Both the position numbers and the translations under genes were made by a program. From Hyphomicrobiales bacterium (GTDB taxonomy: Bacteria > Pseudomonadota > Alphaproteobacteria > Rhizobiales > Xanthobacteraceae), in assembly GCA_021323775.1 (NCBI GenBank), contig JAJPKK010000326.1, positions 1 to 64,000 on the forward strand: a DNA stretch of 64,000 bases, written 5' to 3'. Below are positions 38,547-51,737 of the stretch, piece after piece; position 1 is the first letter of the stretch; every line of letters begins with the position of its first letter. The notes beneath the pieces are model-generated. The model had not been told where the DNA came from. It made no database searches and saw nothing but the letters and a program-made list of their open reading frames with translations.

Positions 38547-38942
38547 TTGTCGGCGATGACGCCCGACCCGCTGGTCCCCGCCATCAAGACGCATCAAGCC
38601 TTGCTCGGACGCGCGCCGCATCTGGCGGCGGCGGACGCCGCGTTCTACTCCGCCAACAACGAGGCCGGCGCGAAGGCGAGAGGCGTCAAACGCGTCTGCA
38701 TTCCCAATCGCTCGACCAAAAGCCTTGAGCGCAAGCGCGAGCAGAAAAAGCGCTGGTTCCGCAACGGCCAGAAATGGCGCACCGGCTGCGAGGGCCGCAT
38801 CAGCGTCGCAAAACGGCGACATGGCCTGCGCCGCTGCCGCTACAAGGGCTTCGTCGGAATGCACCGCTGGGTCGGCCTCGGCGTCATCGCCGACAACCTC
38901 ATCAATATCGGGCGCGCCATGAAAAAGCAGGCGGCTCCTTAA
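38547..38942 (+). pseudogene. C-terminal fragment of an ISNCY-type transposase
   Basis: A 131-codon frame ending at TAA. From about residue 23 it resembles the C-terminal part of ISNCY transposases: AADAAFYSANNEAGAKARGVKR, then VCIPNRSTKS, KRWFRNGQKWRTGCEGRISV and HRWVGLGVIADNLINI with the expected final helix. The catalytic N-terminal two thirds are missing, and no terminal inverted repeats or target duplication were found. An IS remnant at this point, where AT-rich DNA meets the defence genes, supports arrival of the region by transfer. Confidence 0.75.
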
Positions 38943-39215: not shown

Positions 39216-41264
39216 ATGCTTGAACTCGCAGTGACTTTCAATCGGAGTCTCGACCGGCTGACAGCAAGCGAGCAAGCGCTCGCGAAGCAGACCGTGTTCG
39301 ATTACATGACCGATCCGACACGGCCGGGACTTTCGCTTCATCGCATCGACCGCGCCCGCGACAAGCGGTTCTGGACTATCCGCTCCGGCCTCGATCTTCG
39401 GATCGTCGTTTTGAAGGAAGGAGCGCGGTCGCTCTTCTGTTACATCGGCCACCATGACGACGCTTACAAGTGGGCAGAGGGACGGCGCTTTGAAGTGCAC
39501 CCGGTGACCGGGGCTGCGCAGATTGTCGAATTCGAAGAAGTCGTCCGGAAGGAAATCCGGGTTGTCCAGCAAGAGGCCGTACGGCCAGGGCTTTTGGCAG
39601 GCGAGACGCCTGAGTATCTCCTCAGCGTCGGCGTACCTGAAAGTTTCATCGACCTCGTGCGCAGTGTCGATGAAGATGGCCTGCTCGAACTTCTTCCGCG
39701 CTTGCCCGAGGAAGCCGGGGAGGCGCTGCTCAATCTCGCAGCGGGCCATCGGCCGGTTCCTGCTACGGCGCTTGCGAAAATTCCTGCGGTCGATCCTTTT
39801 GATCATCCGGATGCGCAGCGCCGATTCTGGGTGGTCAGCGATCAGGAGCTAGTCGCTCAGGCCCTAGCGAAGCCGTGGGCCGAATGGCTGGTGTTCCTGC
39901 ATCCCTCCCAGCGGGCTGCCGTCGAGCGGAACTTCAACGGTCCCGCACGCGTGTCGGGCACAGCGGGAACGGGGAAGAGCGTTGTTGCCATGCATCGCGC
40001 GGCCCGCCTCGCGCGTGCGCCTGAAGGCGGGCGAGTGTTTCTTACAACGTTTTCGAAGGCTTTAGCGGGAAGGCTCGCGGAGGGTATGGATACGCTGCTG
40101 GGCCGGGCTTCGGATGCGCGTGCCCGTGTGGAGGTCGAGCATTTGCATGCTTATGCCCACGCTCACGCCTCGCGGCTCGAAAGGCCAGGGATTGCAGATG
40201 GTCCAACCATCGACGCCCTGATCAGAGCGGCGCGCGGGAATCTTGACACCGCTTTCGATCATGACTTTCTTCGCGCGGAATGGGACGCCGTCATCGACTT
40301 CTGGGGCGTTTCCTCATTTGAGGACTACCGCAATATTCCGCGTGGCGGCCGGGGCGCCGCATTGCCGGTGGCAGTGCGCCGTCGCTTGTGGGATGTCTTC
40401 AGCGCGGTGCGGCAAGGCCTTGCGTCACGCAACCTTCTTACGTTCGGCGACATCTGCGACGTGCTGCGGCAGCGTATTGAAAGGGATGGAACGCGGCCGT
40501 TCCGTCATGTCATCGTCGATGAAGCCCAGGATTTCGGGCCCCGTGAGATGAAGCTGGCCGCCTCGCTCGCGCCGCCTGGATCCGTGTTCTTTGCCGGCGA
40601 TGTCGGCCAGCGCATCTTCCGGTGGCCGTTTTCCTGGACGGCGGCCGGCATTGATGTCCGTGGCCGCTCCCTGCGCCTCAAAGTGAACTATCGCACGAGC
40701 GCAGAGATTCGCCGCTTTTCGGACCGCTTGCTGAAGGCCCGCATCACCGATGTGGACAACGAGATCGATGACCGCCAGACCTCATCCCCGCTGCATGGAC
40801 CGGATCCGGAAATCAAATCGGCTCCTGATCTCGCTGGCGAGATCGATCTTCTGGTGAACTGGCTCACGGCGCTGCGGGAGCAGGGGACGGCGCCCGGTGA
40901 AATCGCCATTTTTGCCCGAACCAGGAAGGCCCTTGAGCAGAGGGCGTTGCCCGCGCTGAGGCGCTGTGCGCTTTCAGGCGCTTGGCTTTCGCCGGATCAG
41001 AAGGTGGTAACGGGGCACGTCAACCTCGGCACGCTCCACGCAGCGAAAGGACTGGAGTTTCGCGCCGTAGCCGTGGTCGCGTGCGACGATTCGCAGCTTC
41101 CGCTGCGCGTCGCCATGGGCATGGCGAGAGATCAGGATGCCAAGCAGATCGTGGAGCAGCGTGAATTGAGCCTTCTCTATGTCGGCTGTACGCGGGCCCG
41201 CGAGCGCTTGCTCGTGACCTGGTCGGGGCAGCCCTCCCGGTTTCTGGAGAGCAAGTCGGCCTGA
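39216..41264 (+). CDS. RelE-like domain fused to a UvrD-type superfamily 1 helicase
   Basis: A 682-residue protein. Residues about 1-90 look like a RelE/ParE-fold domain (LHRIDRARDKRFWTIRSG, DLRIVVLK, LFCYIGHHDDAYKWAEGRR). The rest is an SF1 helicase: Walker A SGTAGTGKSVVA (about 246-257), motif II IVDEAQDF (about 430-437), motif III GDVGQRIF, UvrD C-terminal motifs (NYRTSAEIRRFSDRL; TLHAAKGLEFRAV; LYVGCTRARERLLVTW near 652-667). It is convergent with zorD, 21 bases apart. Such fusions occur in accessory regions; whether the RelE part cuts RNA is unknown. ATG 39216 is chosen because the RelE-like domain starts there; a longer frame begins at 39138. Role in phage defence is inferred from context. 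Confidence 0.75.
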   Translation: MLELAVTFNRSLDRLTASEQALAKQTVFDYMTDPTRPGLSLHRIDRARDKRFWTIRSGLDLRIVVLKEGARSLFCYIGHHDDAYKWAEGRRFEVHPVTGAAQIVEFEEVVRKEIRVVQQEAVRPGLLAGETPEYLLSVGVPESFIDLVRSVDEDGLLELLPRLPEEAGEALLNLAAGHRPVPATALAKIPAVDPFDHPDAQRRFWVVSDQELVAQALAKPWAEWLVFLHPSQRAAVERNFNGPARVSGTAGTGKSVVAMHRAARLARAPEGGRVFLTTFSKALAGRLAEGMDTLLGRASDARARVEVEHLHAYAHAHASRLERPGIADGPTIDALIRAARGNLDTAFDHDFLRAEWDAVIDFWGVSSFEDYRNIPRGGRGAALPVAVRRRLWDVFSAVRQGLASRNLLTFGDICDVLRQRIERDGTRPFRHVIVDEAQDFGPREMKLAASLAPPGSVFFAGDVGQRIFRWPFSWTAAGIDVRGRSLRLKVNYRTSAEIRRFSDRLLKARITDVDNEIDDRQTSSPLHGPDPEIKSAPDLAGEIDLLVNWLTALREQGTAPGEIAIFARTRKALEQRALPALRRCALSGAWLSPDQKVVTGHVNLGTLHAAKGLEFRAVAVVACDDSQLPLRVAMGMARDQDAKQIVEQRELSLLYVGCTRARERLLVTWSGQPSRFLESKSA

Positions 41265-41285: not shown

Positions 41286-44261
41286 TTACGTCTTCACTGT
41301 GCCGCTGAAGAGCCTGTCGATATCTCCCTCGCCGGTTGGCGGCGCCAGCATATGGCGGGACAGTTGGCGTTTGCTTTCGATCAGCCGGTCGAGCTGTTCA
41401 TCGAACGAGTGGTCCGGCAAACCCGGGTGTACCGCGAGAGGAATATGGATCGTGACCGGTTTGGTCTGGCCGATCCGGTAGGCGCGGTCGTTGCATTGAT
41501 CCTCAATCGCGGGGTTCCACCACCGGCTCAGATGAATGACATGGTTGGCGGCGACAATGTTGAGGCCGACGCCGGCTGCCTTCGGCGACAGCAGAAGGAC
41601 GCCGAACCCGTCCCCGGATCGCGCAAATGCATCCACGATCGCCAGACGTCTTTCACCGGGTGTACCGCCATTGATCACGGCCGGCTTGCGGTCAAGATCA
41701 AACATCGCTGCAATTCCGTCCGCGACGGCGTCCTGCATCGCCAGATGCTCGATAAAAATGAGCGCCTTTTCTCCACGCTTCTCGATGTCGCGGAGGATCT
41801 CGATCGTCTTCGCAAGCCGGGCCGACCGGCGCGCAAACGCTTCGAACCGCGCGCCATCGACGCCGGCTATTTCGGCCGGGTCACGTGGATGAAGTGAAAT
41901 CCCCCGCATCGCGTGAAGGACGCGGAGCATATGACCGCGCGTTCTCTCGCCGCCGTTGCAAGCCTCCACGATCAATTCGCGATAGACCTGCGCTTGCTCA
42001 TCTGGCATCGGCGTGGGGTATCTTTTTTCTTCCTTCTTTGGCAACGCGTCCAGGACATCGGCCTTCATTCGCCGCTTCATCACCGGCGGCGCCTTATCCG
42101 CCGGATCGTCAAGCATCGCCTTCAGCTTCTTGAGTTCTTCCGGCGCCTCTGGGCGGAAAGTCCTGGAAAACGTTTTGAGATCGCCGAGGTAGCCGGGGGC
42201 GATCCGATCGAATATGCACCAGAGATCTTCCATTCTGTTTTCAATGGGCGTTCCCGTCAGGCCGAGAACGAAATCGGCATTCAACGCCCTGGCGGCTTTC
42301 GTATTCAGCGTATCCGGAGCTTTCACTTTCTGCATTTCGTCGAAGATCACGACGGGGTAATGGATGCGCGCAAACGCCTGTTCGTGGTCGGTCAAGGTTT
42401 CATAGGTTGTCAGGATCCAATCGGCTTGACGCATCCGGGTGACGTCAAGGGTTTCCCCCGGGTCCGCACGGCGGGAGGCGTCAAGCTTGAGCCTGGCCAG
42501 CGCTTTGCCATAGGCGTCCACCCTCTCACCAAGTCCCTCGGATGATAGGCGCTCTGTGCATTCCTTTTCCCAGTTCTTGAGGAGAGCCGTAGGGGCTACC
42601 ACGAGCAGCGGCTTGCTCTCGACAGAGCCGGATCCACGTTTGCGCGCCTCGGCGGCATTGCTTTTGATCCAAGCCAGAAAGACAAGCGCCTGAAGTGTCT
42701 TGCCCAAACCCATGTCGTCCGCGAGCAGCACCCCGGGCCAGCCGGCTTTCCAGGCATCCGTCAGCCAGCAGAAGCCCTCCACCTGATGCCGCTTCAGGAT
42801 CGTAGACCCGAGACAGTGGATCGGCGGCTTTGGAGCGATAAATGTCGGCCGCTGCTTCAAAGTGAAGGTGTAATCGACGCCGTCGAAATTCGTCTTCTTG
42901 ATTAGTAAGACGAGTCGCGCGCCTGGGGTCTTTGGTTCCGTGCCAGCGTCGTCCCCGTTGGGCGGAACAACGGGGTCGGGGCCACACTTAGCCGTCCGTT
43001 CGCGCTCCGTTACAAGAAGCTGAGGGACGGCATCGATCGGGATCGCAACGCCCCTGACGACCACGTGGGTGTCGCCGTTTGCTTCAGCCCGCTCGATATC
43101 GCGTTCGATCTGATCAAGCTCGTCGGGCGTAAACGGCTCCGTCTGGACGGGCTCGCCGCCCGCGATCCACCCTGTCTCCGGCAGCCATTGATTGGGGATT
43201 CGCGTCAGCCACGGCAAACGCGGCCGTTCCCAAAGTCCGAGGCCTTCGACGCGGTCGGAATAATTCTTCGTCTCAATGAACAGCGATGCGGAAGGCGCAT
43301 CGCCGGCTTCGGGATTGAGCGCCTCGGCAAGAGCCGCCTTCGGGTTGCGCAAGAACGCCCGCCGCTCCTCCACAGACGCGCGTCGCTTCGCCTTTACGAC
43401 GTCCAGCGCGCGCTTGAGTGCCGGGTCGATCAGGACGTAGCGGTTTTTTCCGATAACGTAGGCGTCGCGGGTAGGCCCGTCCTTTATGGCTTGCTCCAAA
43501 AAACTGCGATGATCATCGGCGGACAGCAGCGTGTCGGACGCGCCTTCGGATCGGCTTGCGTTCTCGTCATCGACCGGTGCGTCATCTTCGAGCGAGGGTG
43601 CGCGGTCGCGGCTCATCAGGATCGGCGTGAAATCCACGCCATTTGGACTTTCGTGGACGTCGAGCGCAAAGGCGCCGGCCTGGAAAATCGTGAATGTCTC
43701 AAGGTAGCCGTCGCACCGGATGTCATGCCCCGTTGTGTCTCTCAGGGCCGTCTGGACCGGCATCCAGCGGGCGATCCTTTCATCGTGCGGCCCTCCAATC
43801 GTCCGGTTATAGTCCTCGGCTGCTTGCACGATCCGCAACAGCGGTGCTGAGAGGCGCCCGAACTGCGCGCCCCACGACAGCTTTAGACCGACCCGCTCAG
43901 GGCGTACCTCCTCTCCGGTCCTCTCGGTCCAGCGCAGGCGAAGGCGGCCATCCGGCTTTTCGACGCGACTGTCGAGGGCGACGGTCAGGCCGAGCGGAAC
44001 GAGCGGCGGCAGTCCGATGCAGTCGGCCACTTCGGGCGCAAGAGCCGCGGCGGTTTCGGAGGAGAGGTGCACATCGAAATCGCTCGCTGTCGCGATGCCC
44101 CGCTCTACGAGGTCCTCCAACGCGCGAACAGCGGGGCGCAGCTTCGGCGCTCGCGCCCAGGCTCGGCGCTCAAGCGGCGTTTCCCTGCCGAACAAGGATT
44201 TCTCGGAGACGGTGACGCGGACTCCGTCTCCAGCGATCTCACTGCGAAAGCGCGGGGCCAT
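41286..44261 (-). CDS. zorD: ZorD, SNF2-family helicase/nuclease of type I Zorya
   Basis: A 991-residue SNF2-type superfamily 2 ATPase. The N-terminal half (about 1-470) is a Zorya-type domain of unknown fold. The ATPase core has DDMGLGKT (about 512-519), motif II DEMQ (about 640), TGTPIENRMEDLW, and the C-terminal lobe with GVGLNIVAANHVIHL and RAYRIGQ (about 928-934). In type I Zorya, ZorD acts after ZorAB senses infection and helps degrade phage DNA. Motif II reads DEMQ and not DEAH or DEGH. It starts one base after zorC stops. The last gene of the operon, it runs toward the convergent RelE-helicase gene. Confidence 0.85.
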   Translation of the reverse strand: MAPRFRSEIAGDGVRVTVSEKSLFGRETPLERRAWARAPKLRPAVRALEDLVERGIATASDFDVHLSSETAAALAPEVADCIGLPPLVPLGLTVALDSRVEKPDGRLRLRWTERTGEEVRPERVGLKLSWGAQFGRLSAPLLRIVQAAEDYNRTIGGPHDERIARWMPVQTALRDTTGHDIRCDGYLETFTIFQAGAFALDVHESPNGVDFTPILMSRDRAPSLEDDAPVDDENASRSEGASDTLLSADDHRSFLEQAIKDGPTRDAYVIGKNRYVLIDPALKRALDVVKAKRRASVEERRAFLRNPKAALAEALNPEAGDAPSASLFIETKNYSDRVEGLGLWERPRLPWLTRIPNQWLPETGWIAGGEPVQTEPFTPDELDQIERDIERAEANGDTHVVVRGVAIPIDAVPQLLVTERERTAKCGPDPVVPPNGDDAGTEPKTPGARLVLLIKKTNFDGVDYTFTLKQRPTFIAPKPPIHCLGSTILKRHQVEGFCWLTDAWKAGWPGVLLADDMGLGKTLQALVFLAWIKSNAAEARKRGSGSVESKPLLVVAPTALLKNWEKECTERLSSEGLGERVDAYGKALARLKLDASRRADPGETLDVTRMRQADWILTTYETLTDHEQAFARIHYPVVIFDEMQKVKAPDTLNTKAARALNADFVLGLTGTPIENRMEDLWCIFDRIAPGYLGDLKTFSRTFRPEAPEELKKLKAMLDDPADKAPPVMKRRMKADVLDALPKKEEKRYPTPMPDEQAQVYRELIVEACNGGERTRGHMLRVLHAMRGISLHPRDPAEIAGVDGARFEAFARRSARLAKTIEILRDIEKRGEKALIFIEHLAMQDAVADGIAAMFDLDRKPAVINGGTPGERRLAIVDAFARSGDGFGVLLLSPKAAGVGLNIVAANHVIHLSRWWNPAIEDQCNDRAYRIGQTKPVTIHIPLAVHPGLPDHSFDEQLDRLIESKRQLSRHMLAPPTGEGDIDRLFSGTVKT

Positions 44262-44262
44262 G

Positions 44263-45654
44263 TCAGGGAGCCCGGTAGTCCGACGGCTGGACGCGGACGC
44301 CGATCAGTTGGTAGAGCCGCTCGGCGACACGATTCTGCCAAATGTAGGTGTCCGCGCCTACGTGGGTAAACATGTCGTTCTTGTTTAGATTGGGTTCGGT
44401 ACGGTCGTTCTTCGGCAACGGACGCATGATCTCATCAGTCGTGTAGTAAGGGGCGTTGAGTTTCGGGCAATTCCGGTCTGATTTCTTCCAGATGTTACAA
44501 CGTCCATTGTGGCTCCAATCGGCGACGATGCATTCGCCGAAGTCCAGCAACAGGACGGCATGTCCAGGCTCAATTTGTCTTCTGCCGCCGGATCTAAACC
44601 TTCCGAAGGGGACATCCTTTCCGAACGCTCGCCTCGCCTCCACGGCTCCTTCATCGCCGAAGATGACCCAGGCGTTCTGCAGCAGCTCTTTCTCATGGTA
44701 GGCCTGCCAGAAAGCCCGCCGGTATTTCCACATGTGGTCGGGCGCGATTTTGTCCACCACGTCCAAAAACTGCCGCAGGGATTGCTCGATTAACCAGCGC
44801 CGCAAGATATCCACGACGTCGTCCAGTCCGATCCATTCGCCTCCGGATATGCGCGGATCCCCGAACCGGGCGATCAGGAAATTCAATATCTCGTTGCGCT
44901 CTGCCAGAGCGGGAATTCGTTCCCCGAACGGCAGCACGACGGCGCGGGCCAGCTGCCCCTTGCAACGTTTGAAGATCAGACGTTCCTCATCGAGCGACCA
45001 TCGTCTGACGGTGTCGATGCGTTCCACCGCGGTGTGCACCGGCGTGCTGCGCAGGATTTCAAGGCCCTTGTCGTGGACCGCTTCCGCGAAGCCAGCCTCC
45101 AGGAGCATCCCCCTGACCCCCGCCGGCTTCAAAAGGCCTTGGATGTTCGTCTGTTCTTTCAGCGCGAGGCGGGCAATCCGCCCGACCGCCTCGGCGCCGG
45201 TGAAGAGGGCGTATCTGGCCTGCAGTTTATCCCATGGCTCGCCGGCAGCGGACGCAAAGTCGCGCAGCACGCCGCTGATCTGTGCAAGCTTCGGGCGGTC
45301 AATTGCGAAGTCGGTGAGATATGCCGAGGCAAGCTGGCGGTAGGGACGCCTCTTCTTGTTACGGACCATGTCGACGACGCGATTGAGCATTGCGTCCAGG
45401 GCCCTATCGTCTTCAGCGACGGCGGGTTTGGTTGTCCACAGGCACCAGGCGATCCTGTTCCAGTCCCGCAAGCTCGGCTGCGTTCCGCGCCTGATGCACG
45501 CGATGAAGTTTCCGGCGACGCTGTCAAGATCCACATGCGGTCTTTCAATCGGAGCGACGGGAGGCAGGCTGCGGGCGAGCCGCGCCGTCGTCCCCTGTTC
45601 CGGCATCGGCCGGGCGCGCAAACTCAATCGCTCGACTGCGGTCAGAAAGCCCAT
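44263..45654 (-). CDS. zorC: ZorC, EH-signature protein of type I Zorya
   Basis: A 463-residue helical protein with no enzyme motifs that I recognise, matching ZorC by length, gene order and an EH-signature-like segment (LDFGECIVADWSHNGRCNIW, about 369-388). In type I Zorya, ZorC binds DNA and is required with ZorD for phage DNA cleavage. The start ATG lies one base past the zorB stop and uses the AAAGGAAA ribosome site inside zorB. The stop is one base before zorD. The order zorA-zorB-zorC-zorD is the type I signature (type II has zorE instead). Confidence 0.8.
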   Translation of the reverse strand: MGFLTAVERLSLRARPMPEQGTTARLARSLPPVAPIERPHVDLDSVAGNFIACIRRGTQPSLRDWNRIAWCLWTTKPAVAEDDRALDAMLNRVVDMVRNKKRRPYRQLASAYLTDFAIDRPKLAQISGVLRDFASAAGEPWDKLQARYALFTGAEAVGRIARLALKEQTNIQGLLKPAGVRGMLLEAGFAEAVHDKGLEILRSTPVHTAVERIDTVRRWSLDEERLIFKRCKGQLARAVVLPFGERIPALAERNEILNFLIARFGDPRISGGEWIGLDDVVDILRRWLIEQSLRQFLDVVDKIAPDHMWKYRRAFWQAYHEKELLQNAWVIFGDEGAVEARRAFGKDVPFGRFRSGGRRQIEPGHAVLLLDFGECIVADWSHNGRCNIWKKSDRNCPKLNAPYYTTDEIMRPLPKNDRTEPNLNKNDMFTHVGADTYIWQNRVAERLYQLIGVRVQPSDYRAP

Positions 45655-45655
45655 C

Positions 45656-46525
45656 TCAGGGAGTTTCCTTTAATTTCTCGATCTCTATTCTCATCTGCTG
45701 GAGGAGTCTCTGCATCTCCTCAAGATCGGCAGTCGGGTCCGTGTCCATGACGAATCGCAGATCAATCCTTCGATTCTTCTGCCGGGCGTCCGGAGTGTTT
45801 CCCGTATCAAGTGGACGCGTAGATGAATAACCGGAGATCGACAGGATCTCCTGATCGCTGCGGTTGTGAAGGCGGCGCAATAAGGGAGCTCTGAACGTAA
45901 GCTCACGATATGTGTTTGCCGCTCGTTGAACTGATAATACCCAGTTCTGGTCATCCGGCCCAATTGTGTCCGTATGCCCTTCGATGAAGACGGTTTCGAT
46001 CGATGCATTTGTTTGGTTCTGACAGCCCGTATCCAGCGAGGAAGCCTTTGTGCAAGACACGTACGCCGGCAGCACGCTCGCCAAAACAGGAGCAATTTTC
46101 TTTACTTTTTCCCTCGCGTCATTGTTGAGGTTCGCATTGCCGAAGTCAAATTTGATTGTGTCTTCAGTTAAACGAAGCACGCCGTTTAACTCATCCACTT
46201 TTACTTTCACTCCGACAGCGTCGAGCTGGTCATGCAGCTCGTAGAGCAGTTTCTGTCGCAGCCGCGTGGCTTGTCGCAGTTCGTCAAGGCGTTCGCTGAT
46301 ACGCTTCTCGATATCCGCCAGCTTTCGTTCAATGACGTTGGCATGCGCAATCTTGGTGTCTTGCGTCGCTTTCGTAGCGTCTGTCTGCTGCCGGAACAGG
46401 AAAGCGAAGCTCATCAACATGATGATGAAGATGAAAAGCATACCCACCATCATGTCGGTCATCGAGACGAAATAGTTCTCGCCCTCGCCGCGATCGTAGG
46501 CATCGGCGCTCTCTGCAATCGCCAT
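45656..46525 (-). CDS. zorB: ZorB, MotB/OmpA-like peptidoglycan-anchored stator subunit
   Basis: A 289-residue inner-membrane protein. One transmembrane helix (about 25-46, VGMLFIFIIMLMSFAFLF) is preceded by the proton-path Asp24 in SMTDMMVG, as in MotB-type stators. A coiled linker (about 50-110) leads to an OmpA-like peptidoglycan-binding domain (IKFDFGNANLNNDA, VFIEGHTDTIG, QKNRRIDLRF). With ZorA it forms a proton-driven motor that spans the envelope and signals phage attack. Sixteen bases separate it from zorA. Family-normal length. Confidence 0.88.
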   Translation of the reverse strand: MAIAESADAYDRGEGENYFVSMTDMMVGMLFIFIIMLMSFAFLFRQQTDATKATQDTKIAHANVIERKLADIEKRISERLDELRQATRLRQKLLYELHDQLDAVGVKVKVDELNGVLRLTEDTIKFDFGNANLNNDAREKVKKIAPVLASVLPAYVSCTKASSLDTGCQNQTNASIETVFIEGHTDTIGPDDQNWVLSVQRAANTYRELTFRAPLLRRLHNRSDQEILSISGYSSTRPLDTGNTPDARQKNRRIDLRFVMDTDPTADLEEMQRLLQQMRIEIEKLKETP

Positions 46526-46541
46526 TGTCGCGTGCTCCTAC

Positions 46542-48623
46542 TCAGCGGGGGCGCGGGGATGCGCCGTTTGGAGACCTTCGTGGCGAACCGCCGTCTGGAG
46601 GAAACTGTCCGAGAACCTGGGTCAGGTTGTCCAAGGTCTCGTCAAGACCACTCATGGTATTGCTGATCTTGCTCAAGAACGTCCCGGTGTGTTCATCGAT
46701 CTTGATGACAAACGCTCGCATCGCCTCCTGATGGTTCGAAACCTCCTTCTGGAAACCGTCAACCGCCCTTTCGAGGGCCTCGTCGACGCGATTGAACCGG
46801 GCTTCGTAATTGGTCCACACGCGCCCGATCTGTTCCAGGTGCGCGTCAAGGCGCTCGGCGATGCCGCTGGCCTTCTGTTGGGTCGTCGATAGCGCGCCTA
46901 CCGAGCTTTCGATCGATTTCGTCATCTTGTCCGCTGAGTGGGCGACCCGTTCAGACGAAGCGACGATCGGCTGGCTCGCGGCGCGGGCGCTGGCAGCGAC
47001 CTGGCTGAAAGCCTCGGCCGTCTCGCGCGACCGTCTGCTGACTCCGTCGATGTGCTGGGTCTGCGCCCGGAAGGCGCTTTCTACGGATTGGAGCGTCGCT
47101 GCAAGCCGGCCAATATCGGCGCTCAGGTTTTGTGTTACTTCGCCAATGGCATTTCGCATGGCCTCCACTGCGTCGTGCGTCGCCTTCTGCGTCGCCGCAA
47201 CCACCTCGTCAGCCGCGCGCTTGCTCGCGTCGGCGGCCGCCTCTCCGGCTTTCCGCGCGATCGTCCCGCTTTTCTCCATTTGCTCGGCCACGGCGAGCTG
47301 CAGCGCAGCCATACTCTCCGCAAAGGTCGCGTTTTGAGATTCAAGCTTCCCGACCAGCCGCTCCATCGCGCTATCGAGAGTTCCGGCCGCGCCGGTTGCA
47401 GAATGACCAAGCGCGGCGCCCGCGTCGGCGATGATGCGGCCCAGGTTCTCCGCAGCGATGGCTAGCTTGTCCGACACGTCCCGCCCGGAGCCGGCGAGGC
47501 TCTCCCTTATGACTTCGAGGCCCGTCTGCAGGCTGGTCAGCGTCTCGATAACTTTCCCAAGCTCCTGTCCGGCTCCTTGATCGAGCTTGCCTATGAACCG
47601 GTTGATCAAGTCTTCGACGCCGGTTTGCGACGTTTGCGTCAGCGCGTTCATCGTCTCTTTGAGGCTGGTGGAGACGGGGCTGATCGCCTCCGCGACTGCG
47701 GTCTGAAAACGAGGAGCAATCGAGTCGCCGAGGCGCGCAAAGAAGGCCTCGCTGTTGATCTCCTTGAGTTGGTCGCGCTGGGCCGCGAGCAAATCCAGGG
47801 ACTCGGCAGCAATCCGCTGTGGCGGCTGGAACTGCAAGCGATCGCCGAGTGCACGGCCGAAACGGTCGAACGCGCCTTCAATCAGAATCTGGTAGACGCG
47901 GAAAAGCAGCGACAGCGCCAGCGAGGCGCCGAGACCGGCGATCGACGTCGCGAACTTGAAGGTGGCGGCGTTGAGGAGCTCGCCCAGGGACTGTTTCATG
48001 GCGTCTGCGGACGCCGCGTTCGTGCCGCCCGCCGCCTTGTGGAGCGCCAGCACCAGCCCGATGAATGTCAGGAGCAGGCCGAGGCCGACGAAAAAGCCGG
48101 GGATCGAGGGCATCATCTTGAGGCCGAACAGCCGTTCGCGGGCATGCGCGAGATTGATGAAACTCTGGGGACGAACGGTGTTCTGTACGACCTTCTGCTC
48201 GTCGTCGCGAAGGAGGGTCCTTGAGAACTCCCGCCACGCAGGTCCGATGAGGGCGTGCCGGCGGAGCTTCTGGGAGACGCCATCAAACGCCGTGGCGAAA
48301 GACCGGGGATCGTCAGCCGGCCCCAAAGCGTGTCTTGCCACCCATAACGCCGCGTGAATCAACAGGACATGGGCGACCAGAAAGGCAACGGCGAGCGCGA
48401 GGCCAAACTGGACGATCGCGGACGCGAGGGCGAATGCGAATCCCTCTTGCGTGACAAGTTCGAGGAGGTTTTGCCGGTTCGCCTTGAAGACGCCTGATAA
48501 CAGTTGCCAGTCGGAAAAGGGCAACACGGGAGCGAGAGCAAAAAGAGCGCCCCAAACCAGGATCCAGAACAGCGGAAGGCGGACTGCGGCGTTCCACGTC
48601 CAATTGGCAGCAAAGAGGCTCAT
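46542..48623 (-). CDS. zorA: ZorA, MotA/ExbB-like stator with long tail
   Basis: A 693-residue protein. The N-terminal 240 residues contain about four hydrophobic segments (LPLFWILVWGALFALAP; FALASAIVQFGLALAVAFLV; PSIPGFFVGLGLLLTFIGL; TSIAGLGASLALSLLF), the MotA/TolQ/ExbB channel fold. The remaining 430 residues form a long predicted coiled coil rich in Ala, Glu, Lys and Gln, the intracellular tail that is typical of ZorA and needed to pass the signal. ATG 48623 (MSLFAANWTWN) follows GGGGATGAG; a longer frame to 48818 has no support. First gene of the operon; transcription probably starts near 48900, leaving a long leader. Confidence 0.86.
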   Translation of the reverse strand: MSLFAANWTWNAAVRLPLFWILVWGALFALAPVLPFSDWQLLSGVFKANRQNLLELVTQEGFAFALASAIVQFGLALAVAFLVAHVLLIHAALWVARHALGPADDPRSFATAFDGVSQKLRRHALIGPAWREFSRTLLRDDEQKVVQNTVRPQSFINLAHARERLFGLKMMPSIPGFFVGLGLLLTFIGLVLALHKAAGGTNAASADAMKQSLGELLNAATFKFATSIAGLGASLALSLLFRVYQILIEGAFDRFGRALGDRLQFQPPQRIAAESLDLLAAQRDQLKEINSEAFFARLGDSIAPRFQTAVAEAISPVSTSLKETMNALTQTSQTGVEDLINRFIGKLDQGAGQELGKVIETLTSLQTGLEVIRESLAGSGRDVSDKLAIAAENLGRIIADAGAALGHSATGAAGTLDSAMERLVGKLESQNATFAESMAALQLAVAEQMEKSGTIARKAGEAAADASKRAADEVVAATQKATHDAVEAMRNAIGEVTQNLSADIGRLAATLQSVESAFRAQTQHIDGVSRRSRETAEAFSQVAASARAASQPIVASSERVAHSADKMTKSIESSVGALSTTQQKASGIAERLDAHLEQIGRVWTNYEARFNRVDEALERAVDGFQKEVSNHQEAMRAFVIKIDEHTGTFLSKISNTMSGLDETLDNLTQVLGQFPPDGGSPRRSPNGASPRPR

Positions 48624-49071: not shown

Positions 49072-49560
49072 CTATCCAAATTCGAGAATGACTGGCGATC
49101 CAAGCTGTTCGGCCATGCGGACGCGAACAGCTGCACGCTTGATCTCCGTCGCCTGCTTTTGTGGCGGCTGCCGAAAATCGTGGCGCACGAGCCCCTCGGT
49201 ACGCCATGCGCCGAATCCCTGGTCCAAAAGGATCGTCAGGCAACCTCCGCCCCTCGATGAGCAATGAGCCGCGCCATTGCGCCCGCTTGGAGCCCGGCCA
49301 TGAGGTGAGGGGTGCCGCATTCGGCGCAAACGAGGATTTCAAAGGCCGGGGCGCCGCAGGCGCAATGGTCCCGCTGCGCGAGCCACAGAGCGCCAAATTC
49401 CCAGCCCGCATCCGCAGTCGCCAGCTCTGCATCCCGGTGCGGACAAGCGGGATCGATGCAGGCCCACAATCCGCCTTGCGCACGCAGGAATAGATGGGCG
49501 CGCCAGGGTAGAAGATGCAGGCCTGTCTGCGGACACCGGGCGAGCGCTGCGGCGTCGAGA
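49072..49560 (-). pseudogene. Fragments of a large DEAD/DEAH-type helicase gene
   Basis: Two minus-strand frames joined near 49240. The upstream one (about 49560-49236) reads HLLPWRAHLF, then LRAQGGLWACID, PACPHRD, HCACGAPAFEILVCAECGTPHL: the linked Cys clusters of the zinc-binding region found in big helicases with a DUF1998/MZB part (as in BrxHII, DrmA/DrmB and DruE-type proteins). The downstream frame (to 49072) has LLDQGFGAWRTEG and QATEIKRAAVRVRMAEQ, ending ILEFG. It covers a small part of a protein of about 1000-2000 residues. Which helicase family it came from is not certain. Confidence 0.55.
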
Positions 49561-50339
49561 AGCGTCTGCGCATTTATCAGGAGCGCGCACCGCGCAACGC
49601 GGTCTATGACAAGTACGCCAAGCGCTACGTGGCGACCGATATGTTCAAGCCGATTTTTCTCAAGCCTGATCCCGATGGCTATCTCTCGCGGCTGCGGTCC
49701 CTGTCTGAAGGGCTGGCAGAGCGGTCAGAGTCGTGGATTGCGCAGCCGCCGGACGCCGACATTGCGGTGACGCCCCGCCGTGCCGTGGACCCGCCGGTGC
49801 TTAAGGCGGTCCTCACGGCCGTGCGGGAGAAGCGATCGGTCGAAGTGTATTATCAGTCGTTGAGCAAGGAGCGCCCTAAGCCGATCTGGCGGCGGATGAC
49901 GCCGCATGCCTTCGGCTATGACGGCTTCCGCTGGCACGTGCGGGCCTTTTGCCACCTCGATCGGAGCTTCAACGACTTCCTCCTGCCCCGTATCTTGGGG
50001 GCCCGGGATATGGGTGATTCCGGCCCGGGGGCGGAGCATGATGTGCTGTGGCAGGAAACGTTTGACGTGGAGATTGGCCCGCACCCGGAGCTGACGGAAA
50101 GCCAGAAGGCCGTCGTTGCCAAGGATTACGGCATGGTGGGCGGCCGGGCGGTCCTCAGGGTTCGCTACGCGATGCTGTTCTATGTGCTTAAGCGCCTCGG
50201 TCTGCTGGGCAACGCGGTGAAGCAGAATCCACGCACGCAGCACATCGTGGCGTTGAACGCGAAGGAGACAGCACGGGCATTGAAACGCGCGGAAACGGAG
50301 TCGCAACAGCCTTTGCCGTCAGCACGAAGAGTCTCCTGA
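49515..50339 (+). CDS. WYL-domain regulator of BrxR/CapW type, N-terminally truncated
   Basis: A 274-residue protein matching the defence-associated BrxR/CapW family from its second segment on: IYQERAPRNAVYDKYAKRYVAT then FKPIFLKP (about 20-50), a WYL domain (about 95-170, with VEVYYQSLSKE, HAFGYDGFRWHVRAFC), and a WCX-like C-terminus. Family members begin with a winged-helix domain of about 50 residues that is missing; the frame starts where the helicase remnant ends on the other strand. The repressor probably can no longer bind its operator, or binds poorly. Its stop overlaps the next start (TGATG), the brxR-brxA arrangement of BREX. Confidence 0.72.
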   Translation: MQACLRTPGERCGVEKRLRIYQERAPRNAVYDKYAKRYVATDMFKPIFLKPDPDGYLSRLRSLSEGLAERSESWIAQPPDADIAVTPRRAVDPPVLKAVLTAVREKRSVEVYYQSLSKERPKPIWRRMTPHAFGYDGFRWHVRAFCHLDRSFNDFLLPRILGARDMGDSGPGAEHDVLWQETFDVEIGPHPELTESQKAVVAKDYGMVGGRAVLRVRYAMLFYVLKRLGLLGNAVKQNPRTQHIVALNAKETARALKRAETESQQPLPSARRVS

Positions 50340-50576
50340 TGGACGCGGCGCCACATCGCCCATCTCTCATGTCGTTCGGCGCTGGCGGGCTGTTCGTCAA
50401 CGAGAGCGTTGCAGTCGCGAAGCTCCATTATGCGGGAGGGGATTGGAATGTGACGGCGGCAAAGGCGGTTGAGGCCCGGGCATTTCCGGTCCGCAAGGCA
50501 AGCTCGGCGCGCCGCACAATCCGCGAGATCGTCAACCGTTTGAAATGGCTTTCGGATGATGAGCTTGAGCCGTCAG
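50339..50576 (+). pseudogene. brxA: 5' fragment of brxA (DUF1819)
   Basis: About 80 codons resembling the N-terminus of BrxA, a small DNA-binding component of BREX phage resistance: MSFGAGGLFVNESVAVAKL, then GDWNVTAAKAVEARAF, RKASSARRTIREIVNRLKWL and SDDELE. ATG 50339 overlaps the regulator stop by one base. After DDELEP the frame continues into unrelated sequence, while the brxC-like frame takes over, so a deletion joined the two. The normal protein is about 200 residues. Confidence 0.7.
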
Positions 50577-50742
50577 GCGCAGACCGAAGCCCTGTCGCCG
50601 GGCCTCGCCCGGATCATCAACGACAAGCGCGATCAGGCCGCAAGCCGCCAGCGCGATCTCACCCTCAAGGTCAAAGCCCTGCTGTCCGAGGCGCGGTTGT
50701 TCGTCCGCGGCGCTGAAATCGAAATCCGCTCCGAGGACGCAC
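50577..50742 (+). pseudogene. brxC: Short internal fragment resembling brxC
   Basis: In the frame one step from brxA, the sequence reads SPGLARIINDKRDQAASRQRD and then LTLKVKALLSEARLFVRG, AEIEIRSEDA, which looks like an internal helical segment of BrxC, the large ATPase of BREX (about 1200 residues). It is cut on the left by the brxA junction and on the right by the tandem repeats starting at 50747. The brxB gene, normally between brxA and brxC, is gone. Assignment by recognition only. Confidence 0.5.
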
Positions 50743-50746
50743 AGGC

Positions 50747-51498
50747 TTGCCCTCGGCGAACCGCGGCGAGGTCCGGCCGCGTGGGCAAACGCGGAGCGAC
50801 GCCGTGCCAGAGTTTCAACATCCGGGCCGCGTTTGCCCACCCTACGAAGCTGCCCTGAAACACCGTAGGTGGGGCAACGGCGGCCGATGCGCCGCATTCC
50901 GGCACGACGATGCGCCGCCGTTGCCCACGCGGTCCGAGGTTGCCCTCGGCGAACCGCGGCGAGGTCCGGCCGCGTGGGCAAACGCGGAGCGACGCCGTGC
51001 CAGAATTTCAACATCCGGGCCGCGTTTGCCCACCCTACGAAGCTGCCCTGAAACACCGTAGGGTGGGCAACGGCGGCCGATGCGCCGCATTCCGGCACGG
51101 CGATGCGCCGCCGTTGCCCACGCGGTCCGAGGTTGCCCTCGGCGAACCGCGGCGAGGCCCGACAGCGTGGGCAAACGCGGATCGCCGCCGTGCCGGATTT
51201 TCACCGCCTCGGCCGCATTTGCCCACCCTACGAGACACCGTAGGGTGGGCAACGGCGGCCCCGGCGCTTCATCTTGGCGCGGCGCAGGAGCCGCCGTTGC
51301 CCACGCGGTCCGCCCGTGCGCACGGCGAACCGCGGCGAGGCCCGACAGCGTGGGCAAACGCGGATCGACGCCGTGCTGGATTTTCACCGCCTCGGCCGCG
51401 TTTGCCCACCCTACGAGACACCGTAGGGTGGGCAACGGCGGCCCCGGCGCTTCATCGGGGCGCGGCGCAAGACCCGCCGTTGCCCACGCGGTCCGAGG
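50747..51498. repeat. Four tandem palindromic units (193, 193, 183, 183 bp)
   Basis: Copies start at 50747, 50940, 51133 and 51316. The first two are nearly identical to each other, as are the last two, with about 10 bp difference in length between the pairs. Each unit contains stem arms GTGGGCAAACGCGG ... CGTTTGCCCAC, a CCCTACG ... CGTAGGG hairpin, and GTGGGCAACGGCGG ... CCGCCGTTGCCCAC. Long open frames across it on both strands are due to its composition. No spacers, so it is not a CRISPR array. Confidence 0.9.
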
Positions 51499-51737
51499 TT
51501 GCACCGTTTCCTCGTCCCGACCTACCTTCGGCAGCACGCCGCGCGCAGCCGCCGTCAAGGAGGGCCGTCGCGCGCCTATCTCCACACGATCAGCGCTTCC
51601 AGGCCATCCTTGACGGCGGCGAGCACGGTGTCATGCTGAAGGTAGGTCGGGACACCATGTGGGGGGCCTTGCGAGCAAGTTAACGCTCGCAGGGAAATGA
51701 CTTCAGAGAGGCGGCCGGTTGCGTTATCGTAAGAGAA

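Follow-up and report, generated by a model that had tools for sequence, protein, structure and literature searches.

A complete type I Zorya operon, probably functional, in a worn defense island of a Hyphomicrobiales bacterium

This work describes a complete and probably functional type I Zorya operon, a reading to which we assign a probability of roughly 0.9, in a 64,000-nucleotide stretch of Hyphomicrobiales DNA (the window; all coordinates refer to it). The four genes, zorABCD, occupy 41286-48623 on the minus strand and are separated by 16, 1 and 1 bases (Table 1). Each ORF is open from start to stop, none of the four genes is broken, and both the gene order and the gene content of type I are complete. 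The original prediction, made from the sequence alone, had proposed four same-strand genes with gaps of 1-16 bases, in the full type I order and without truncation, and the ORF list and the profile searches bear this out. As a defense system, the window Zorya belongs to an already known type, of which it is a divergent copy. To judge from its sequence, the operon is probably expressed and assembled and probably confers defense.

Table 1. Coordinates of the zor genes and of the defense-related features around them.
Feature	Position	Strand	Evidence
zorA: MotA/ExbB-like inner-membrane motor subunit, long cytoplasmic tail	46542..48623	-	693 aa, ATG; PADLOC ZorA1, NCBIfam ZorA_1, 8vvn_C
zorB: MotB-like subunit with a single TM helix (containing Asp24) and an OmpA-like peptidoglycan-binding domain	45656..46525	-	289 aa; PADLOC ZorB1, Pfam OmpA, 8vvn_B
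zorC: EH_Signature protein	44263..45654	-	463 aa; PADLOC ZorC1, Pfam EH_Signature, AF2 model vs 8r68
zorD: SNF2-type helicase effector	41286..44261	-	991 aa; PADLOC ZorD1, PDB 8qy7, helicase motifs
RelE-fold + UvrD helicase, ArmD-like, convergent with zorD	39216..41264	+	UvrD Pfam domains; RelE/YafQ fold matches; kept in L002-L004
Druantia DruE relic (type III-like), upstream of zorA	49281..49556	-	PADLOC DruE3 E 2.4e-30, profile positions about 410-500 only
WYL-domain protein	49515..50339	+	PADLOC/Pfam WYL; N-terminus shorter than in the L004 homologue
BREX relic, BrxA first 77 residues	50339..50570	+	PADLOC BrxA 8e-19, profile 9-76 of 203; Pfam BrxA
BREX relic, piece of BrxC (approximately residues 658-716 of 1172)	50571..50747	+	PADLOC BrxC 9e-11; Pfam BREX_BrxC_4th over cut-off

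Identity of the four Zor proteins

Each protein was searched against the PADLOC profiles, and all four matched the type I group, namely ZorA1 (E 1.4e-207), ZorB1 (E 2.7e-86), ZorC1 (E 4.5e-151) and ZorD1 (E 0). Chance is excluded, as these E-values are all 3e-86 or better. A failure of the ZorC or ZorD profile, named beforehand as the result that would count against Zorya, did not occur. The motor proteins are type I ZorA and ZorB by PADLOC, and they are accompanied by ZorC (EH signature) and ZorD (SNF2) instead of ZorE or ZorF/ZorG. Pfam gave OmpA in ZorB over the cut-off, EH_Signature in ZorC at 171 bits, and SNF2 together with Helicase_C in ZorD. In NCBIfam, ZorA passed the curated cut-off of ZorA_1 (581.8 bits vs 190), whereas ZorB (28.6 vs 400 bits) and ZorD (334.7 vs 1500 bits) missed their strict equivalog cut-offs, and the operon is therefore regarded as a divergent copy. 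As its identity with tested Zorya systems is modest, the phage range and other details may differ.

The structural comparisons point the same way. A PDB search matched ZorA to 8vvn_C and ZorB to 8vvn_B (E 9.5e-20), both chains of the Shewanella type I ZorAB complex 8VVN. The best PDB match of ZorD was 8qy7 (E 4e-77), which we take to be a ZorD structure. The ZorC sequence found no match in the PDB, and its AlphaFold (AF2) model (pLDDT 87.5) was used for a fold search; the solved ZorC 8r68 was matched at E 7e-7, the only match below 0.001. ZorB also has generic OmpA/MotB matches in NCBIfam, as another MotAB-like motor (Tol/Exb/Mot) might. An identity of this kind is next to inconceivable and was rejected, given that the type I Zorya profiles ZorA1 to ZorD1 win by wide margins, that ZorC and ZorD are present, and that the latter match 8r68 (as a model) and 8qy7, respectively.

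Functional residues and proposed mechanism

Residue 24 of ZorB is an Asp, as originally predicted. In the alignment with 8VVN it falls on D24 of Shewanella type I ZorB, a residue needed for defense (PMC11890865). Besides this ion-path Asp, ZorB retains the peptidoglycan-binding residues: H184, L197, R201, R252 and R257 correspond to H186, L199, R203, R254 and R259 of the Serratia protein, each shifted by two. The polar-ring Thr/Ser of ZorA are kept in LLTFIGL (184-190) and FATSIAG (224-230). The long cytoplasmic ZorA tail, which is required for defense, is present as well: profile matches reach residue 673 of 693, and between residues 380 and 670 the coils of apolipoproteins and of SMC proteins are weakly matched in Pfam and NCBIfam, which fits the coiled tail foreseen for this protein. 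ZorD keeps the motifs GLGKT (518), DEMQK (641) and DRAYRIGQ (925). ZorC has both the [ED]WSHNG conserved in its family and the invariant His further along. The acidic residue before WSHNG presumably supplies the E of the EH signature. It is Asp379 in the window protein; Asp is also found in its clade and in some other members, and Glu in the rest.

Compared with type I Zorya in general, the operon thus has the same four genes, order, profile membership and functional residues, whereas its ZorC carries Asp379 and its ZorB and ZorD score far below the NCBIfam equivalog cut-offs. The residues predicted to serve ion flow, peptidoglycan binding and ATP hydrolysis are present. In the scheme established for Zorya (PMC11890865, PMC12904381), an ion-driven inner-membrane motor would be built from five copies of ZorA and two of ZorB. 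Upon phage injection, the ZorB domains would bind peptidoglycan and ions would pass Asp24; the ZorA tail would then transmit a signal that brings in ZorC and ZorD, the SNF2 helicase, for binding and degradation of the DNA as it enters.

The surrounding defense island

The Zorya operon sits in a worn defense island with relics of BREX and Druantia. Judged on brxA and brxC, BREX is broken: BrxA breaks off after residue 77, and about 59 residues of BrxC follow directly. The assembly contained no further BrxC domain, and BREX_BrxC_4th is present in it as a single copy. The junction has the appearance of a scar left by large deletions, and the decayed BREX genes that the original prediction had placed next to Zorya are indeed there. 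Upstream of zorA, the Druantia type III-like gene is reduced to about 90 of some 2000 DruE residues, in place of a full-length DruE with DruH. This scrap, which lies next to the shortened WYL gene and is also matched by a helicase encoded upstream of the ARMADA genes in E. coli, is a second lost defense system. The original prediction had seen zorABCD and the BREX debris but had missed both the DruE scrap and the helicase gene that is convergent with zorD.

Broken defense genes in the same island could suggest that zorABCD is inactive and decaying like its BREX and Druantia neighbors. With all four zor genes at full length and their key residues intact, this is improbable, and a functional operon remains the preferred reading.

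The window WYL protein shares 70% identity with its homologue at the Bradyrhizobium locus L004, in an alignment that begins only at residue 16-17. In L004 the WYL gene (L004:6747-7712) immediately precedes zorA in the same orientation and no BrxA separates the two; for this reason the WYL protein may regulate Zorya rather than BREX.

Two further features mark the island. Right after the BREX scar, four tandem copies (90% matches) of a 193-base, very G+C-rich unit span 50747-51502. At the other edge, before the helicase gene, a DDE transposase fragment is located at 38547-38942 (+).

Relatives and distribution of the operon

A ZorB scan over 84,980 species genomes yielded 20 loci, and in most of those whose contigs extend far enough zorA, zorB, zorC and zorD follow in the same order. 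The nearest relatives are found in a Xanthobacteraceae MAG (L002), Prosthecomicrobium hirschii (L003) and Bradyrhizobium sp. CCBAU 51627 (L004), with protein identities of 43-60%. Within the order, a ZorC relative was detected in 31 of 397 sampled genomes, and zorABCD occurs in the same arrangement in many genomes. No other member of the bacterium's own genus was among the relatives drawn. The main carrier genera of Zorya I listed in one study (PMC11890865) are all gammaproteobacterial, and a literature search returned no paper naming both Zorya and Bradyrhizobium. The locus described here is an intact, divergent alphaproteobacterial copy of Zorya I.

A convergent RelE-UvrD helicase gene

Just past zorD, a gene for an ArmD-like protein runs convergent to the operon. 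The ORF list starts it at TTG 39138; the relatives begin at the codon matching ATG 39216, and this start was adopted in Table 1. The UvrD Walker motifs are intact, with K254 as the Walker A Lys. The first 90 residues form an N-terminal domain of RelE type in the predicted fold (pLDDT about 90), in which H79, H80 and Y84 are conserved. When compared with known structures, nearly all of its listed neighbors are RelE, YafQ, YoeB, HigB or ParE chains, the best with a Z of 9.0 over 81 residues at 2.4 A, although Foldseek E-values reach only 0.01. As modeled, the N-terminal domain shares the RelE fold; RNase activity is putative.

ARMADA type II includes ArmD, which combines a RelE-like domain with a UvrD helicase and is essential for that system (PMC12458937). 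The window gene has this same layout, and over its length its product shares 34% identity with E. coli ArmD; in the E. coli protein used for the comparison, residue 454 is the Walker B Asp, as published for ArmD. ArmA, ArmB and ArmC are in contrast absent: at E 1e-15 no homologue of any of them was found in the window, which has the ArmD-like gene alone.

The convergent position is repeated at the three nearest Zorya relatives, at a distance from zorD of 21 bases in the window, 8 in L002 and 6 in L003. Among the stretches compared, no similarity was detectable between the four loci outside the five genes, except for the WYL gene shared by the window and L004, which lies in opposite orientation in the two. 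The helicase is 63-67% identical between the window and the other three loci, as against 43-59% for ZorA, ZorB and ZorC. In the helicase tree, the four proteins form one clade with 100/100 support, all of them linked to Zorya, and no REase, methyltransferase or ArmABC homologue was found at any of the four loci. Together with the intact Walker motifs, the constant position between unrelated flanks, the stronger conservation and the missing usual partners speak for a variant of type I with five genes: the RelE-UvrD helicase, taken from an REase-methyltransferase(-UvrD) or ARMADA-type operon, would have become a dedicated partner of ZorABCD. Such a partner would act together with ZorD on the injected DNA, processing or unwinding it, or would cut RNA at ribosomes as a fall-back. 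This reading is possible, at somewhat under even odds. The loci in question number only four, and the helicase has a promoter separate from that of zorABCD because it is encoded on the opposite strand. Most other Zorya loci are without the helicase, which is therefore not generally required.

The other reading, to which we give an even chance, is that the helicase is a mere neighbor, a general defense-island gene inherited by chance with the ancestor of the clade. The family is widespread, on plasmids, prophage contigs and chromosomes, and its usual place elsewhere is behind an REase-methyltransferase pair or behind ArmC-like helicases. On the tree, the Zorya label requires nine changes overall, which also led us to reject the idea that the UvrD family as a whole goes back to one ancestor linked to Zorya. 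Helicase-bearing genomes and Zorya genomes do overlap above chance (10/30 vs 16/367, p 3e-6), but a methyltransferase lies nearby in most of the overlap cases, and the overlap is largely explained by REase-methyltransferase operons located near Zorya. The p-value was accordingly rejected as proof of a partnership, since most of these loci carry the REase-methyltransferase pair that is the helicase's usual company. What a chance neighbor accounts for less easily is that in the four closest loci these usual partners are gone, and that the link to zorD has been kept while the proteins diverged by about 40% and the flanks changed. A literature search for papers naming Zorya together with UvrD gave general or ARMADA matches only, and no helicase-Zorya link was found among them. 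On the sequence comparisons made here, we regard the helicase as a recruited companion and perhaps a Zorya partner.

As a separate observation, operons of an REase (BPTD_3080), a methyltransferase and a RelE-UvrD gene were found near Zorya I in several Rhizobiales genomes (L061, L064, L072 and L085), a recurrent pairing of the two systems.

Implications

In E. coli, an island is known that combines Zorya II, Druantia III and ARMADA II (PMC12458937). The window likewise combines Zorya, a Druantia III-type gene (here a relic) and a relative of ArmD. It differs from the E. coli island in that its Zorya is of type I, its Druantia is a scrap and its ARMADA component is the ArmD-like gene alone. If the helicase is a true partner of ZorABCD, helicase modules would be swapped between motor-based and modification-based defense systems, and a further effector or backup for Zorya would be suggested.
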